DNA of 64,000 nucleotides, taken from contig JAVJQK010000101.1 of assembly GCA_040218145.1 (NCBI GenBank), forward strand, positions 62,001 to 126,000. The letters are read 5' to 3'. Both the position numbers and the translations under genes were made by a program. This DNA is from Sandaracinaceae bacterium (GTDB lineage: Bacteria; Myxococcota_A; Polyangia; Polyangiales; Sandaracinaceae). The notes under the pieces were generated by a model. That model made no database searches. It saw nothing but the letters and a program-made list of their open reading frames with translations, and was not told where the DNA came from. Shown here piece after piece: positions 34,703-55,485 of the stretch (position 1 is the stretch's first letter; the number at the start of each line of letters is the position of its first letter).

Positions 34703-36724
34703 TCAGCGCCGCCGCAGCCCCAGCCCGAGCAGGAGCGACGCGAGGAGCAGCGCGCCGAGCGGCAGGTCGCGCCGCGCGCCGACCGTGCACGAGGCGCAGC
34801 CGGCCGCGCCGCCTTCGAGCGCCGCGGGGCGAACGTCCCTGCTCGACTCCTCCATGTCCGCCTCCGCCCGCATCACGCTCTCCCCTCCCCCGGGGCCGCC
34901 TCCCGAGGTGCGCAGCGCCACCGCGTCCGCGTGCCGCGCCGCCGCCTGTCCTCGCTGCGCGCGCGCCGCGTCGAGCGTGCCCCGCGCCGCCGCCGTCACC
35001 TCGCGCTCGGGGATGGCCAGGAACGCCGTGTAGGGCGTGACGAAGTCGTAGGCGAGGGCGAGCGAGACCACCTCGTCGCGCAGCTCCGGCCGCTCGCCCT
35101 CGAGCTGGATCTCCTCGAGCAGGTGGTCGACGCGCCACACCGCCCAGCGGCGCCCGACCCAGGCGCGGCGCCCGCTGACCTCGGGCTGCGCGCTGGTGTG
35201 CATCTGCACCGGCTGGCCGCCGACCGTGCCGCGCACGACGAAGCGGAGCGCGCCCTCGCCGCCCCGGAACCGCCCCGCGATCACCAGCTCGTCGTCCACG
35301 AAGAGGTCGGGCAGCGTGCGCGGGTAGATCCGGCTCGCCGTCGCGCCCTCCACGTCGAGCGAGACGTCCACGAGCAGCGGGTGCGCGATCTGCGCGTAGA
35401 GGTGCCCCACCTGCGCCTCGATCTCGGTGGCGCGCGCGATGTGGGTGAACGTGCCGCGCTTGACCGCGGCGAGGCGCGAGAGCAGCGCGCGGTTGACGCC
35501 GTCGCCGACGCCGACGGTGAAGACGCGCACGTCGCGCCGATCGCGCTGCGCGACCTCGAGCGCGGTCCGCGCATCGGACTGCCCGTCGGTCAGGAAGATC
35601 ACGACCTGCGGCCGGCCGCGTGAGTCGCCCTGCGCGTCGATGGCGCGCCGGAGCGCGAAGCCGATGTCCGTGCCGCCCCCGGGCGAGAGCCGCGCGACGA
35701 ACTCGAGCGCGTCGGCGCGCACCGCCGCGTCCGCCGCGCGCGGCTGGTGAAAGAGCGGGTCGACGTCGTCGTCGAAGGCGATCACGTTGAGCCGGTCGGA
35801 CGCGCCGAGGCGACGGATCACGTCGGACGCCGCCTGGCGCGCGTTGACGATGGCCTGGCCCGCCATGCTGCCCGAGCGGTCGAGCACGAGGGTCACGTCC
35901 TTGGGCGCGACCCGGTCCGCGTAGCCCTCGGGCGCGGCGAGCGAGAGCACGAAGTAGCCGCTGTGGCCTTCGTCTCGGTGCACCCACACGCTCGGCGTCC
36001 AGGGCGCCTCCTCGATCGTGTATCGCAACACTAGCTGCCCTCGATGTGCGCCCGTCGCGCGGGCACGGATGCGCAGGCCGCCCTCGATCTGCTCCACGGC
36101 CAGCTCGTGCGTGGGGGAGCGCACCTCGCGCGCCCGCGGATCGCGCAGCAGGATCTCCACGCTGGCCGACGGCGAGGCGAGCGGGACGCGGTAGGTCACG
36201 TCTTCGCCCTGCCGCCGCAGCCACTCGCCGAACGTCGTCTCGACCCGCTTGTCCTCGCCCGGCTCGATGGGGAAGACACGGAAGGTCAGCTCGCCATCCG
36301 CCGTCTGCTCGAGGATGGCCGGGTCGCGCCGCACCGTCGTCACCGCGTCGTAGACCTGCCGCGCCGCCTGGCGCTCGAGGACCTCGCCTTCGATGCGCTC
36401 CTCGCCGATGTAGTAGGCGAAGCCCTGGACGCGCGCGTCGAGCGAGGGCCGGAGCAGGTAGCGCCCCTCGAGCCGCGCCCCGGTCTGGTTGCGGAAGACC
36501 TGCACCAGCTCCGTCGTGGCGTGCTGCCCGTCGATCACCGTGCGCATCCGCTCCTCGACCAGCGGCAGCGCCTCGAGCGCCTGGGCCGGCCGCTCGGGGT
36601 CGCGCACCTCGAGCTCCGCGCGGAGCCGGATCGTGAACGTCGCCGTCTGCGCCGACGCGCTCGGCGCGAACGCCGCCGCGCTCACCAGCGCCAAGAAGCC
36701 CCCCAGAGTCGCTGCAGTTCTCAT
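34703..36724 (-). CDS. VIT/VWA secreted protein with MYXO-CTERM-like tail
   Basis: A 673-residue protein. The ATG after GGAGG starts a signal peptide (AALVSA-type, cleaved near ASAQTATF). Residues about 35-170 form a vault-inter-alpha-trypsin (VIT) domain. A von Willebrand A domain follows with MIDAS DRSGSM at Asp282 and a GGGTDIG loop. The C-terminus has Cys-rich GCASCTV, then a hydrophobic stretch and LRRR, the pattern of MYXO-CTERM anchors, which are processed and sorted to the surface in myxobacteria. VWA domains bind ligands by metal; it probably mediates adhesion or complex assembly. Divergent from the second STAND regulator by 63 bp. Confidence 0.88.
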
Positions 36725-36787
36725 CCCCGCCTCCATGGGGAGAGACTGAAACCCCGCGATTGCACGGCCCAATTACAAAAGGTCACA

Positions 36788-49090: not shown

Positions 49091-50869
49091 TCAGCGTAGG
49101 CGTGCGAGCCCGCCGCGGGTGGCCACCCACACGCCCCCGCGGTCGGGCAGCACGTCGGTGACGTCGTCGCTCGGGAGGCCGTCGGCGCGGGTGAGGTGGG
49201 TGAAGGCGCCGGGGCGGCCGATGACGAGGCCGCGCTCCAGGGTGCCGATGTAGACGCGGTCTCCGCGGCGGCGGATGGCGTGCGGGTTGACCCAGCCGCT
49301 CGGTAGACCCGCTTGTCCTTCGCGCACGATGCGGAAGCCGTCGCCGTCCCCGATGGCGAGGCCGCCGTGATAGGTGCCGGCCATCACGCCGTCGCCCCAG
49401 GGCACGACCGCGGTGACCCAGTCGACGGGGAGGTCGCCGCTCGAGACGGTGTGGCGGGTGAAGCGCTCGGTGTCGGGGTCGAAGCGGTAGAGGCCGTGCA
49501 GGCTGCCGACCCAGACGCGGCCGCGGCGGTCGGTGGTGACCGCGTGGAGCTGCGCGACCGGGAAGGTCGGATCCCCGGTCCAGCAGCGCCAGCGCGAGGC
49601 GCGGTAGCGGCAGAGCTCGCGGCTGGTGGTCACCCAGAGCGCGCCGCCGTCGACGTGCATCGCGGTGGTGTGGATCCAGCTCGGGCCGTCGGGATCCTCG
49701 ACCCGAGAGAAGACCCGGCCGTCGTGCCAGTAGAGCCCGCGGTCGGTGGCGATCCAGAGCCGCTCGTGTGCGCCGCGGCCGGTGACGGCGAGATCGTTGA
49801 TGCGGCGGTCGACGGTCCAGCGCTCGTGCGCGCTCGTCGCCGCCTCGAACTGGCCGCCGCGCATGCGGGCGAGGCCGTCGCCGAAGGTGCCGACCCACAA
49901 CGTGCCGAAGGCGCGGGCGAGCGCGGTGACGTCGCCGCTCGGGAGGCCGCCGCTGGTGATCGCGGTCGCGCTCCGACCCCCCGCGCTCCGCCCGGACACA
50001 CGGTGCACGCCGCCCGCGTGCGCGACCAGGGCCTCGTCGCCGTCGACGAGGGCCGCGTGGGCGCGGTCGAAGCGCCCGACGCGGCGGGGCCGGTCACCGT
50101 CGGCGCGGTAGAGGCCGCGCCCGAACGTCGCGAGCCAGACGGTCTCCCCATGCAGCGCCACGTCGCGCACGTCGCGCACCGGGAGGCGAGCCGCGAGGGC
50201 GGTGACGGGGTGCGACGCGTCCACGGTGCCGTCCGAGGCCACGACGCCGACGCCCGCGATGGTCGCGACGAAGACGCTGTCACCGTGCATCTCGAGGCGC
50301 CACGTGTAGTCGCTCGGCAGCCCGTCGCGCTGGCGCACGCGGCCCACCACGCGCCCGCTCGCGCTCACCCGGAGCACACCGACGCCGTGCGACGCCACCC
50401 AGAGCTCGTCGCCCACCACCGCGAGATCGGTCAGCCGGACGTAGGCGTGCGCCCGCCCGAGCGAGACCTCGGTGAGCTCTTCGCCGTCGACGCGGAAGAG
50501 CCCGCCGCCGTGGCTCGCGAGCCAGACGTGTCCGCCGAGCTCGACCGCGCGGCGCACCCGGCGCGCGTCGTGGGTGGCGACCACGTTCAGCTCCGCGTCG
50601 AGCACCGCGGTGCCCTCGACCGCGCCCACCCAGAGCTGATCACCGACGACGCTGACCGAGCGGAGCCGCGCGCCGGGCAGCCCCGCGGTCAGCACCTGCT
50701 CGACGTGGTCATCGCGCAGCACGAGCAGGCCGCCCTCGGTCGCGACGAAGAAGCGGTCTCCGTAGCGGGCCACGTCGCGCGCGTCCGCGCTCGCGGTGAT
50801 CACCTCCTGCACCTCCTGCGCGTGCGCGGGCGCGGCGAAGAGCAGGGCCAGCGTGAAGAGCGCGCGCAT
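49091..50869 (-). CDS. Secreted Reg_prop beta-propeller protein
   Basis: A 592-residue protein with signal peptide (RALFTLALLFAAPAHA, cleaved before QEVQEV). The chain is built of repeated blades with the W-x-A/G-T-x-G-G/GLPS-x-x-V pattern of two-component-regulator propeller repeats (WVGTFGDGLARM, WIATDRGLYWHD, WVGSLHGLYRFD, GLPSDDVTDV), enough for two propellers. In hybrid kinases such repeats bind extracellular ligands; here no kinase follows. Its ATG overlaps the stop of the large PQQ-VIT-VWA gene (TGATG), so the two are made together and probably function together outside the cell. Confidence 0.88.
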   Translation of the reverse strand: MRALFTLALLFAAPAHAQEVQEVITASADARDVARYGDRFFVATEGGLLVLRDDHVEQVLTAGLPGARLRSVSVVGDQLWVGAVEGTAVLDAELNVVATHDARRVRRAVELGGHVWLASHGGGLFRVDGEELTEVSLGRAHAYVRLTDLAVVGDELWVASHGVGVLRVSASGRVVGRVRQRDGLPSDYTWRLEMHGDSVFVATIAGVGVVASDGTVDASHPVTALAARLPVRDVRDVALHGETVWLATFGRGLYRADGDRPRRVGRFDRAHAALVDGDEALVAHAGGVHRVSGRSAGGRSATAITSGGLPSGDVTALARAFGTLWVGTFGDGLARMRGGQFEAATSAHERWTVDRRINDLAVTGRGAHERLWIATDRGLYWHDGRVFSRVEDPDGPSWIHTTAMHVDGGALWVTTSRELCRYRASRWRCWTGDPTFPVAQLHAVTTDRRGRVWVGSLHGLYRFDPDTERFTRHTVSSGDLPVDWVTAVVPWGDGVMAGTYHGGLAIGDGDGFRIVREGQAGLPSGWVNPHAIRRRGDRVYIGTLERGLVIGRPGAFTHLTRADGLPSDDVTDVLPDRGGVWVATRGGLARLR

Positions 50870-53800
50870 CACTGCACCTCCAGCCGGAGCGGCTGGTGCG
50901 TGACGTTGGCGGCCATGTCGACCACGACCACGTCGAGCTCGAGCGTGCCCTCCGCGTCGGCGGGGATCGTCCAGGTGCCCTCCCAGCCGTTCGGGCCCGC
51001 GCGCTCGAGGTCGATGACTTCGCCGCTCGGGGTTCGCGCCTCGACTCGACGCGCGTCGCTGAGCAAGAGCGCGCGCTCCTCGGTCAGCTCGCCCGGGCGG
51101 CGGCCGACCTGCGCGAGATCCGCCTCGGTGATCACCTGCTCGGCGCGCAGCGTGATCGTCTCGCCCGGCCGGACCTCTCCGTCGACCTCGAGGTGCACCT
51201 GCGCCGCGGTCTCGTCCACCGTGTACCAGAGCCGGAGGTGCTCGAGCCGGCCGTCGGCGTGGGTGATCAGCACCTCGATCGGGTAGGTGCCCTCGTCGGC
51301 GTCGCGCGGGATGAGGAAGCGCGCGGTCCACATGCCGAGCTCATGCTCGAAGCCCGCCTCGAGGCTCTCGCCGAAGGGAAGGATCACGGTCACCTGGCGC
51401 GCGTCCTCGGGGGCCGGGATGCGGATCTCGGGGTCTCCCGGCAGCGCGCGCGCGGGGCTGACCGTGGCCCGCGCCTCGGGCTCCGGCTCGTCTTCGTCTT
51501 CCTCTTCCACGATCTCCTCCACCGCCACGAAGCTCGTCCACGGCGTGACGATGTGGTGGGCGAGGCCGAGCTGCGTGACCTCGGCGATCAGCGTCGGATC
51601 GTCCCGGAGGAAGAGGCGGTTCATGCGGTCGTGCACCGCGGCGCGCGCCCAGAGCGAGGCCTGCGACGCGTGCGGGCCCTCGGGCGTGGGGGCGTCGGGC
51701 AGGGTGACGGGGAAGCTCCGCTCGAAGCGTCGGCCGTTGACCGTGCCGCGGACCCGCACGGTGGCTCGCAGGGTGGCCTCGCCGCCGCCCGAGAAGCGGC
51801 CGCGGACCTCGAGCGGTTTGCCGGCGAAGAGATCGGGCAACCGCCGCGGGTAGACGTCGCGCACCGCGAGCCCGCCCCAGTCGACCTCGACGTCGGTGAA
51901 GAGCGGCCGGTCGATGTGCGCGACGAAGCGCTCCGCGGCCTCGCTCGGATCCTCGGCCAGCCCGACGTGCACCGCGCGGCCTCGCCCGATCTCCGCCGCG
52001 CGCTCGGTGAGGAAGCGGTTCACGCTCCCGCCGACGCCGAACGCGTAGACGCGGTGCTCGCCCAGCTCGGTCGCGATCGCGCGCAGGACGTCGGCCTCGT
52101 TCCCGATGTAGCCGTCCGTGACGAGCACGACGATCGGCACCCGATCCGCGCTCGTCTCGGACGCGAGCGCGCGGGTGATGGCGGGGACCATCTCGGTCGC
52201 GCCGGCCGCGCGGAGCTCGTCCAGGAAGGCATTCGCGCGGGTGACGGAGTCGTCGCTGCGCGCCTGCATCGAGAGCTGGCGCACCTGGTCGCTGAAGCCG
52301 ATGACGTCGAAGCGATCCTCGGGGCGCAGGCCCTCGATCACCGCCGCGACCATCGCGCGGGCGTGCGCGAGCGGGCGGCCGTGCATGGAGCTCGAGGTGT
52401 CGACCACGAAGGTCACGTCTCGCGGCATGATCTGCGCGTCGGTGGGCGAGGCGGGCGGCTGGACGAGCAGGGTGAAGAAGCCCTCGTCCTCCTCGCGGTG
52501 GGCCAGCATCGTCGCCTGCGGCGTCTCGCCCTCGAGCGCGTAGCGGAGCGTGAAGTCGCGCGTGCGCGCCTCGCCTTCGGCCTCGAGGTGCACGCTCGCG
52601 TGGTCGCCCTCGCGCTCGATCGCCGGCTCGTGGCTGGGCGAGCTCACCGCGGCGAGCGGCAGGCCCGGCGCGAGCGAGACCCGCATCGTCAGCGGCGGCT
52701 GCTCGTCGACGAAGGCGCTCGTCGCGCTGACCGCGGTCTCGTTCCCCTCGGCGTCGTCGGCCGGATCGTAGCGGCGCGGCGCGACCATCGGGAACGTCAA
52801 CTCGTATTGCCCGTCTTCGTAGGGGAGCACCTGCACGTAGCGGAGGCGCACGTCGACGCGGTCGCCGGGCTGGAGGTTCGCCACGCGCTGGGCGAAGAGG
52901 TTCGGGCGCTGCTGCTCGAGGAGCGCGGCGCGCCGGCCCTCGCTGCGCGCGGCCTCGTAGGTCTGGCGTGCCTCGCGGCGCTCGCGGATCACGCCGCGCA
53001 CCACGCGGTCACCGATGCGCATCTCCATGCGATCGACCGCCGCGTCATCGGGGAGCGGGAAGAGGTAGACCGCCTCGATCGGCTCGGGGCCGTCGTTCTC
53101 GAAGCGCTGGGTGACGAAGACCTCGGCCACACGCCCGCTGATCCGCGCCTCGACCTCGGTGCCCCGGAGCGGCAGCTCGCGCTCCACGTCGACGCCCTCC
53201 TCCTCGACCGGCGTCTCTTCGTCTTCGACGGGATCGCGGCTCAGGGCGACGGCGCGCATCGATCCGCGGCCCGGCCGCTCGAGGCTTGCGAGGAGGTGCG
53301 GGTCGACCGCGCCCGCCGTCTCCACGAGCCCCGCGTGCCGCGCGTTGCCGCCCCACATGTGCCAGCCGTCGAGCATCGCGTCGCCGAGCTCGAGCCCGAC
53401 CACGTTGCCCGCGCCGGTCGCGAAGTAGACCCAGCCCTGGGCGACGATCGGCTGGAAGACCACGGGCTCGCCGACGTCGTAGGCCCAGACCGTCATGCCC
53501 GTGTCGATGTCGGTCGCGACGAGCTGGCCGTCGACGGTGCCGAAGACGAGCAGGCCGCCCACGACCGCGGGCGGGCTGAGGGCCTGGGCGTCTTCGGCCT
53601 GCGCGTACTGGCGGCGCCACACCGTCTCGGCGGTCTCCATGTCGCGCGCGAGGACCTCACCCGCGATGGAGAAGTAGGCGCGGCCGTCGGCGACCGCGGG
53701 GGAGCTGCCCTGGAAGGCCCAGCCGCTCGCCACGTTCCGGAGGCCGAGGTGCTCGCCGTGCGGGACGTTGCCCCACGCGCCCGCGGTGGCGGAGGCGAGC

Positions 53801-54831
53801 TGGCGGTCGCGGCTGTCGCCCGCGAGGTAGCGCGCGGCGAAGTGCTCGCTCTCGTGGAGGCGGTGGCCATTGCCCGCGCTCAGGACCAGCATCGACTCGC
53901 GCGGGCTCGCGGCGCTCCCGCTCCGGCGCGCGACCAGCACGTTGTCACGGTCGACCCAGACCGCGCTCGACGCGCCGACGTCGCGTCGCCACTGGACGCG
54001 ACCCGTGCGCGCGTGGAGGCGGTGCGCGGTGCCGTCCATGGTCGCGAAGAAGACCGAGTCGCCGACCACCTGCGGCGCCTGGATCACGTCGGCGGGGATC
54101 GTCGTGTCCCAGACCGGCTCGCCGTCGCTCAATCGGAACGCGCCGAAGCGGTGGCCGCCATCCTTGGGGTAGGCGCTGAAGACGAGGCCGTTCGCGGCCG
54201 CGGGCTGGCTCATCAGGGGGTCACCGAGCCAGCGGCTCCAGGCGAGCTCACCGGTCTGCGCGTCGGCCACGAAGATGGTGCAGCTCTCGGTGTTGTAGAT
54301 CACCTTGTCGTCTTCGATGATCGCGGCCGTCGGGCCTCCGTCCGGGGCGGGCATCGACCAGGCGAGCTCGCCGCTGTAAGCGTCGAACGCGTAGAAGCGG
54401 TGCGACGCGAAGCCGCCGCCGAGGAACACCTTGCCGTCGTGGAAGGCGGGCGAGGTGAGCAGCTCCGCGCGCGGCATCGCCGTGACCCAGCCGCGCCGCC
54501 CCTGCCCGAAGTTGAACTCCGCGGACGCGCCGCGCGGCGGGTGAGGCATGCGGAGCGGGCGCACCTGCATGCGCTGGCCGATGGCGTCGCCCTCCGGCTC
54601 CACCACGCCCTCGAGCGCGTCCTCCATCAGGCCGGCCCGGTCCACGTTCTCGCGCGCGGGCGCCTCGCCGAGGTCGACCATCTTCCCGGTAGGCGACGCG
54701 ATCTCCGCCCGGATGGTCGCCCTCGGCGGCGCGCCCCCGCTCGGGCAGCCGGGGATGAGCAGCGCTCCTCCCGCCAGCAGCCAGAACGCACGAAACCCTC
54801 TCGATCCGACGTCGCTCGTCGATCCACGCAT
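50869..54831 (-). CDS. Giant PQQ-propeller/VIT/VWA lipoprotein
   Basis: A 1320-residue protein. Lipoprotein signal peptide with LIPGC near residue 28. Residues about 105-520 are PQQ-type propeller blades (FYAFDAYSGELAWSMPAPDG, GTVDGQLVATDIDTGMTVWA). Residues about 550-695 form a VIT domain (VTQRFENDGPEPIEAVYLFP). A VWA domain follows with MIDAS DTSSSM at Asp811 and VLVTDGYIGN. The last 170 residues are beta-sandwich-like. PQQ propellers bind proteins or cofactors; no quinoprotein residues can be assigned. An Asp/Glu-rich linker lies near 1130. A good GGAGGGG ribosome site precedes the ATG. The next gene overlaps its stop. Confidence 0.9.
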   Translation of the reverse strand: MRGSTSDVGSRGFRAFWLLAGGALLIPGCPSGGAPPRATIRAEIASPTGKMVDLGEAPARENVDRAGLMEDALEGVVEPEGDAIGQRMQVRPLRMPHPPRGASAEFNFGQGRRGWVTAMPRAELLTSPAFHDGKVFLGGGFASHRFYAFDAYSGELAWSMPAPDGGPTAAIIEDDKVIYNTESCTIFVADAQTGELAWSRWLGDPLMSQPAAANGLVFSAYPKDGGHRFGAFRLSDGEPVWDTTIPADVIQAPQVVGDSVFFATMDGTAHRLHARTGRVQWRRDVGASSAVWVDRDNVLVARRSGSAASPRESMLVLSAGNGHRLHESEHFAARYLAGDSRDRQLASATAGAWGNVPHGEHLGLRNVASGWAFQGSSPAVADGRAYFSIAGEVLARDMETAETVWRRQYAQAEDAQALSPPAVVGGLLVFGTVDGQLVATDIDTGMTVWAYDVGEPVVFQPIVAQGWVYFATGAGNVVGLELGDAMLDGWHMWGGNARHAGLVETAGAVDPHLLASLERPGRGSMRAVALSRDPVEDEETPVEEEGVDVERELPLRGTEVEARISGRVAEVFVTQRFENDGPEPIEAVYLFPLPDDAAVDRMEMRIGDRVVRGVIRERREARQTYEAARSEGRRAALLEQQRPNLFAQRVANLQPGDRVDVRLRYVQVLPYEDGQYELTFPMVAPRRYDPADDAEGNETAVSATSAFVDEQPPLTMRVSLAPGLPLAAVSSPSHEPAIEREGDHASVHLEAEGEARTRDFTLRYALEGETPQATMLAHREEDEGFFTLLVQPPASPTDAQIMPRDVTFVVDTSSSMHGRPLAHARAMVAAVIEGLRPEDRFDVIGFSDQVRQLSMQARSDDSVTRANAFLDELRAAGATEMVPAITRALASETSADRVPIVVLVTDGYIGNEADVLRAIATELGEHRVYAFGVGGSVNRFLTERAAEIGRGRAVHVGLAEDPSEAAERFVAHIDRPLFTDVEVDWGGLAVRDVYPRRLPDLFAGKPLEVRGRFSGGGEATLRATVRVRGTVNGRRFERSFPVTLPDAPTPEGPHASQASLWARAAVHDRMNRLFLRDDPTLIAEVTQLGLAHHIVTPWTSFVAVEEIVEEEDEDEPEPEARATVSPARALPGDPEIRIPAPEDARQVTVILPFGESLEAGFEHELGMWTARFLIPRDADEGTYPIEVLITHADGRLEHLRLWYTVDETAAQVHLEVDGEVRPGETITLRAEQVITEADLAQVGRRPGELTEERALLLSDARRVEARTPSGEVIDLERAGPNGWEGTWTIPADAEGTLELDVVVVDMAANVTHQPLRLEVQ

Positions 54832-54927: not shown

Positions 54928-55485
54928 TCAGCGAACCCGGCGGCCGTGTTTATCCGAACGCGATCCCGTCTGCGGCGGCTCGCGAGGCGTGAAGTTGATT
55001 GGAGCCACGACGACCCCGCAGTCGCCCGGCCCGCGGCCCCGCGTCAACGGCGGCATGGAGAGCGCCGCGCCCACCTCGATCAGACACACCTTCAGCGCGG
55101 GCGGGAGGTCCTCCGAGATCGACGCGCGGATCACGTCCCCGCTCATGCCGAGTCGCAGCCGAAGGCGGACGCTGACGCGCAGCGACGGGTCGGTGCGGAG
55201 GGCGCTCTCGTAGCAGTCCCGGAGATCGTCGCGCGCGGTCCCGAAAGCAGCCCTCGCCGCGGTCGCGTCCACGTGGGCCATGCAGCCCCTGAGCGGCTCG
55301 GGCTCCGAGCGCGCTGGTTGGGCGGGCACAGCCGGCTGGACGCGCGGAGACTCGTCGGCGACGGGTTCGACCATGTCCGCGGGTCGGGGCTCGGCCGCGC
55401 CGCACCCGGCCAGGAATAGCAGCGCTGCGCTCGCGCGGCCGGAGCGGGCCAGCCAGGTCACGAGGTAGGTCAGCAAGGTGTGCAT
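54928..55485 (-). CDS. Lipoprotein, possible AgmX/TonB-like C-terminal domain
   Basis: A 185-residue protein with a long signal region and lipobox FLAGC (Cys28), then a Pro/Glu-rich tether to residue 66. The C-terminal domain has the layout C-x..-DLRDCYESALRTDP..VSVRLRLRLGMSGDV...VCLIEVGAALSMPP, which resembles the small C-terminal domain of AgmX/PglI and TonB-like proteins common in myxobacteria, with paired cysteines. It may contact peptidoglycan or an outer-membrane partner. It lies 96 bp upstream of the PQQ-VIT-VWA gene on the same strand. Confidence 0.72.
   Translation of the reverse strand: MHTLLTYLVTWLARSGRASAALLFLAGCGAAEPRPADMVEPVADESPRVQPAVPAQPARSEPEPLRGCMAHVDATAARAAFGTARDDLRDCYESALRTDPSLRVSVRLRLRLGMSGDVIRASISEDLPPALKVCLIEVGAALSMPPLTRGRGPGDCGVVVAPINFTPREPPQTGSRSDKHGRRVR

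Follow-up and report, generated by a model that had tools for sequence, protein, structure and literature searches.

The conserved unit identified here consists of a VIT-VWA protein with a C-terminal Ig-like pair and of a Reg_prop double propeller; in many myxobacteria, as well as in some other bacteria, the two genes overlap or form a fusion. The two products probably represent a two-part recognition device. The features of the pair in the window, that is the whole stretch of 64,000 nucleotides of Sandaracinaceae bacterium DNA that was analysed, are listed in Table 1. No paper describing a bacterial VIT-VWA protein joined with Reg_prop, or describing a partner for the widespread bacterial VIT-VWA proteins, was found in the open-access literature; for one subgroup of these proteins, a specific partner, a candidate domain for docking and naturally occurring fusions are now provided, and its function therefore becomes testable by a simple pull-down. 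The pair could also reveal how gliding, predatory bacteria that form multicellular groups arrive at an integrin-like combination of a metal-dependent head with a propeller.

Table 1. Features of the VIT-VWA and Reg_prop gene pair (window coordinates).
Feature	Position	Strand	Basis
Exported lipoprotein gene, 1320 aa: PQQ propeller, VIT, VWA, C-terminal Ig-like pair	50869..54831	-	ORF, Pfam
Signal peptide and lipobox LLIPGC, Cys29	54745..54831	-	Direct sequence reading
PQQ_2 / BamB-like beta-propeller, residues about 112-501	53329..54498	-	Pfam PQQ_2, 4e-30
ITIH-like core, residues 549-1106	51514..53187	-	AlphaFold2 model vs ITIH1 (6fpy)
C-terminal Ig-like pair, residues 1126-1320 (~195 aa)	50872..51456	-	Conservation, co-occurrence with Reg_prop
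GGAGG, likely ribosome-binding site of the Reg_prop gene, within the VIT-VWA gene	50877..50881	-	Direct sequence reading
Stop/start overlap GTGATG (GTGA or TGATG)	50867..50872	-	Direct sequence reading
Exported Reg_prop double propeller gene, 592 aa, about 14 blades	49091..50869	-	Pfam, AlphaFold2

Domain organization of the VIT-VWA lipoprotein

The initial annotation had placed a PQQ propeller, a VIT and a VWA domain on one 1320-residue lipoprotein, and the open reading frame, the Pfam matches and the lipobox cysteine bear this out. The VIT domain was matched at residues 556-665 (7e-36) and VWA_3/VWA at residues 805-953 (6e-15), with an intact MIDAS in the window VWA (D811, S813, S815, T879 and D906), the residues of which are conserved in nearly all of 59 members. 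For the PQQ propeller, the matches in the PDB were BamB chains. The protein shares about 55-62% identity with its orthologues, some of which (such as L049, L051 and L054) have N-termini resembling its lipobox N-terminus, and the lipid anchor is not universal among its relatives.

AlphaFold2 models were obtained as single chains, each protein alone. In the model of residues 541-1320 (pLDDT 82.6, pTM 0.65), the core aligned with ITIH1 with a Z of 27.2 over 505 residues and an rmsd of 3.9. The ITIH C-terminal domain was absent from the Pfam matches of both the whole protein and its C-terminal piece, where weak matches can be filtered, and Ig-like matches were observed instead; direct reading shows an Ig-like domain at the C-terminal end (...DMAANVTHQPLRLEVQ). 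On the same strand, an ORF of 185 aa with a lipobox-like start precedes the gene by about 97 bp (window 54928-55485, minus strand); Pfam gave no match for it. A second VIT-VWA protein of 689 aa is also encoded in the window (34703-36772, minus strand), with no Ig pair or Reg_prop neighbour in the stretch examined, and the window genome (11 Mb, 148 contigs) contains ten VIT domains.

The Reg_prop partner and the gene junction

Reg_prop was the sole Pfam family found in the 592-aa protein (1e-11), the model of which (pLDDT 89.4, pTM 0.85) contains about 55 strands, and its signal peptide, directly read, is MRALFTLALLFAAPAHA. Export is expected for both proteins, given the lipobox Cys29 of the first and the signal peptide of the second. 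The junction of the two genes reads GGAGGTGCAGTGATGCGC, where the stop TGA and the start ATG share one A in the order GGAGG-TGCAGTG-ATG, and an alternative GTG start three bases before the ATG is possible for the Reg_prop gene. The TGATG overlap with a gene for a secreted two-propeller protein, as originally proposed, was confirmed at this junction, and the AlphaFold2 model agrees with the two propellers. The Sandaracinaceae MAG MED-G138 has a Reg_prop gene 97% identical to that of the window. When the window's own genome was searched with the Reg_prop family alone, no match was returned, the window gene itself included, because the 24-position repeat model is too short.

Distribution and arrangement of the pair

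A first survey covered 56 genomes, comprising the window's own and its relatives, in which each protein was searched separately. The Reg_prop protein was detected in ten of them, each with an adjoining VIT-VWA protein matching the query C-terminus, including one pair split over two contigs (G015), whose end is adjacent and which is counted among the ten. The 4-base stop/start overlap was observed in all ten loci, in the window as one of the two possible starts. Across the phylum, 377 genomes were searched with independent profiles for the C-terminal domain (A2) and the Reg_prop protein (A1), which were found in 51 and 37 genomes, respectively; 32 genomes contained both, where 5 would be expected (Fisher p about 6e-28). 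Because paired genes served to build both profiles, part of this co-occurrence is inherent in the design, and the adjacency is the stronger evidence. The five genomes with a Reg_prop match and no Ig-pair match (G383, G288, G290, G160 and G228) are accounted for by contigs that are cut, by large proteins with multiple propellers or, in one case, by an orphan. Outside Myxococcota, a scan of named genomes revealed further loci in Elusimicrobia and Vicinamibacteria MAGs.

After duplicate removal, 63 loci with the C-terminal Ig pair were retained. The Reg_prop gene lies immediately downstream on the same strand in 52, and 44 of these 52 pairs exhibit a 4-bp RTGA overlap; both parts are contained in a single ORF at five loci from at least three lineages (L140, L176, L177, L178 and L213), and the gene order is swapped at one (L180). 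Frameshift artefacts are an unlikely source of the fusions, as L140, L177 and L178 have no signal peptide between the parts. Five loci are without Reg_prop, two of them on contigs cut at the end, while L200, L205 and L206 have the Ig pair and downstream sequence yet no Reg_prop, indicating that the partner can be lost or replaced. With Reg_prop adjoining or fused in 58 of the 63 non-duplicate loci, and likewise in the window, the gene is kept next to the VIT-VWA gene, a conservation on which the initial annotation had made its proposal depend. The recurrence of this overlap and this neighbour throughout the phylum excludes chance. A Reg_prop neighbour was displayed by none of 33 VIT-VWA loci that lack the Ig pair, most of them with only 1.5 kb of flank; among the 33 are seven PQQ-VIT-VWA paralogues inspected with wider flanks, two of which belong to the window's genome.

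Differential conservation was observed for the domains of the VIT-VWA protein, with VIT matched by Pfam in 44 of 46 members, VWA_3 in 42 and PQQ_2 in only 4, indicating that the PQQ propeller is an addition of one clade. The domain order PQQ-VIT-VWA is not single and occurs in at least 16 proteins. The earlier view of PQQ-VIT-VWA plus Reg_prop as one unit therefore stands for VIT-VWA with Reg_prop, but not for the PQQ propeller, which was rejected as a core component given its low frequency and the PQQ-VIT-VWA paralogues that have no Reg_prop. Seven such paralogues (L059, L060, L061, L062, L063, L064 and L065) share a short conserved tail, C..AR..DG.ID...L..CL, unlike the Reg_prop-linked protein.

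A larger conserved operon was likewise rejected, as no other flanking gene recurs across lineages and only the two genes do. Various genes were nevertheless observed beside the pair in particular lineages or genomes, such as a gene with TPR repeats and DUF2135 directly upstream (L058:6199-7710, L177 and L193:2866-3942), DUF2135 being linked with bacterial alpha-2-macroglobulin operons; a gene for a second VWA protein (VWA_4) directly upstream in other lineages (L140:6000-7196, L178 and L196); an FG-GAP repeat protein, of the repeat type of integrin alpha propellers, which in one genome begins where the Reg_prop gene ends (L056:11405-13474, plus strand); and Ser/Thr kinase-like genes with a zinc-ribbon-like N-terminus, recognised by sequence only, which stand beside the pair (L134:5223-6959) or replace the Reg_prop gene (L205:3696-5615).

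The C-terminal Ig-like pair

The conserved domain at residues 1126-1320, which was missing from the initial annotation, yields only weak Ig-like matches in Pfam. Across 59 aligned relatives, the motif P1131-G-D-P1134 (PGDP) and the residues R1171, F1172 and D1206 are invariant. A PDB sequence search with the Ig pair returned generic Ig domains only, and this region of the model was hardly covered by the structural search. Intact members have the Ig pair as their final domain ahead of the stop codon, and in the fusions it continues into the propeller. Heavy chains of the ITIH type have an Asp-Pro processing site, and the Asp-Pro of PGDP was considered as such a site; the idea gained no support, since the Pfam matches in that region are Ig-like and the literature yielded no paper on it.

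The pairwise distances of 43 pairs were utilized to assess the co-evolution of the two proteins, as the initial annotation had suggested, and to see which part of the VIT-VWA protein follows the partner. The Reg_prop distance correlates best with that of the Ig pair (0.87), and the partial correlations, controlling for the other parts, are 0.63 for the Ig pair, 0.29 for VIT and -0.06 for VWA; correlations among related proteins carry species-tree signal, and only their ranking was used because shared ancestry inflates all figures. By this ranking, the divergence of Reg_prop tracks the Ig pair, not VIT or VWA.

Proposed function of the pair

The proposal of binding scaffolds with no enzyme domain agrees with the Pfam results for this exported, translationally coupled and conserved pair. 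A physical complex of the two proteins is well supported by the gene coupling and the fusions, and docking through the Ig pair is proposed with moderate confidence. Glycan binding by the Reg_prop propeller (a fold analogy at about 15% identity), ligand binding by the MIDAS of the VWA, and a cell-surface role in adhesion or recognition, as suggested by analogy of fold and family, are put forward less firmly. On balance, we lean towards an exported heteromeric complex, in which an integrin-beta-like MIDAS head of the ITIH type is docked via the Ig pair to a probably glycan-binding double propeller. The stop/start overlap would allow the two chains to be made together and to assemble promptly, with a single chain taking their place in several lineages; after export, the Ig pair would join the two chains, the VIT domain and the hybrid beta-sandwiches would carry the VWA, whose intact MIDAS would bind a ligand via a divalent metal, and the BT4663/PorZ-like double propeller would recognise a glycan. 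In the window lineage, the lipid and the extra BamB-like propeller may anchor or extend the complex.

The strongest rival, possible though doubtful, is a periplasmic envelope-assembly or scaffold complex, whose propellers would help to assemble or attach outer-membrane proteins or polysaccharide with no adhesion outside. The BamB-like nature of the PQQ module, the delivery of LPS to a sortase by PorZ, a close fold relative of the Reg_prop partner, and the TPR-DUF2135 or second VWA gene immediately upstream in other lineages are consistent with such a role; however, the BamB-like module is absent in most members, the genome has no PF04203 sortase, and the MIDAS and the ITIH fold indicate ligand binding. 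Rather unlikely is a sensor, where Reg_prop would sense a glycan and the VIT-VWA lipoprotein would relay the signal to a kinase of the inner membrane whose gene lies elsewhere. The Reg_prop relatives are sensor domains of HTCS, and a few loci have a neighbouring kinase gene (L055 by Pfam, L134 and L205 by sequence); however, most loci share no recurrent kinase neighbour, a kinase gene was not detected adjacent to the window pair, and Pfam finds a signalling domain in neither protein. Operons can also group the genes of one pathway with no contact between the products, and mere co-transcription might keep the gene order of two proteins that act separately; this is very improbable, given that at least three lineages have fusions, that the overlap is exact, that no other neighbour is conserved and that the association is specific to the Ig pair.

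Comparison with known systems

The 1320-aa protein belongs to the broad VIT-VWA family and lies outside TIGR03788 and PilY1, while the 592-aa Reg_prop protein is neither PorZ nor an HTCS. The marine proteobacterial sortase target family of NCBIfam (TIGR03788) matches the VIT-VWA core at residues 558-1129 with 461.4 bits, but this is below the cut-off of 551.65, and the C-terminus shows no LPXTG-type signal, membrane segment or basic tail. No match to the sortase family PF04203 was observed in the whole window genome, while control genomes do match. A sortase-anchored surface protein was rejected on these three grounds of score, sorting signal and sortase. The PilY1 tip adhesins of type IV pili combine a VWA domain with a PQQ-type propeller. 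A VWA variant of PilY1 occurs in Myxococcus (PMC9109919), whereas the 1320-aa protein is without the T4P_PilY1 domain (PF05567), and the PilY1-type match of the genome is at another locus.

The model of the Reg_prop protein matches BT4663 and PorZ (5m11), and the sequence profile finds the same two. BT4663 (PDB 4a2l), a heparin/heparan sulphate sensor with the Reg_prop propellers of the Bacteroides hybrid two-component periplasmic domains, is the best sequence-profile match (E 6.6e-44), but the 592-aa protein has no further domain, membrane segment, or kinase or regulator on its chain. PorZ of the T9SS is similar in being exported and in having two seven-bladed propellers (TM 0.66 by query length), whereas the 592-aa protein stops after propeller 2 with no T9SS C-terminal domain and scores 16.9 bits against the PorZ equivalog NF052228, the cut-off of which is 260. 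PorZ binds the A-LPS glycan and also PorU, more strongly with A-LPS present (PMC8545088).

Inter-alpha-trypsin inhibitor heavy chain 1 (ITIH1), a human matrix protein, shares the hybrid-sandwich arrangement of VIT and a MIDAS-bearing VWA, but has neither the Reg_prop partner nor the C-terminal bacterial Ig pair. Its structure was described by its authors as integrin-like, with Mg-dependent binding through the MIDAS (PMC7170535). A distant parallel is offered by a Dictyostelium VWA/VIT protein that works with a WD40-repeat F-box protein (PMC10539598). By analogy, the integrin alpha/beta heads also join a MIDAS VWA with a hybrid domain to a beta-propeller chain, although the propeller here is Reg_prop, not FG-GAP, and its association follows the Ig pair instead of the VWA. 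The pair might even be a counterpart of the integrin head that is independent and bacterial, where a MIDAS VWA/hybrid chain and a beta-propeller chain, docked via an unnamed Ig-like domain, would form a metal-dependent adhesion receptor reading protein and glycan; we consider this unlikely.
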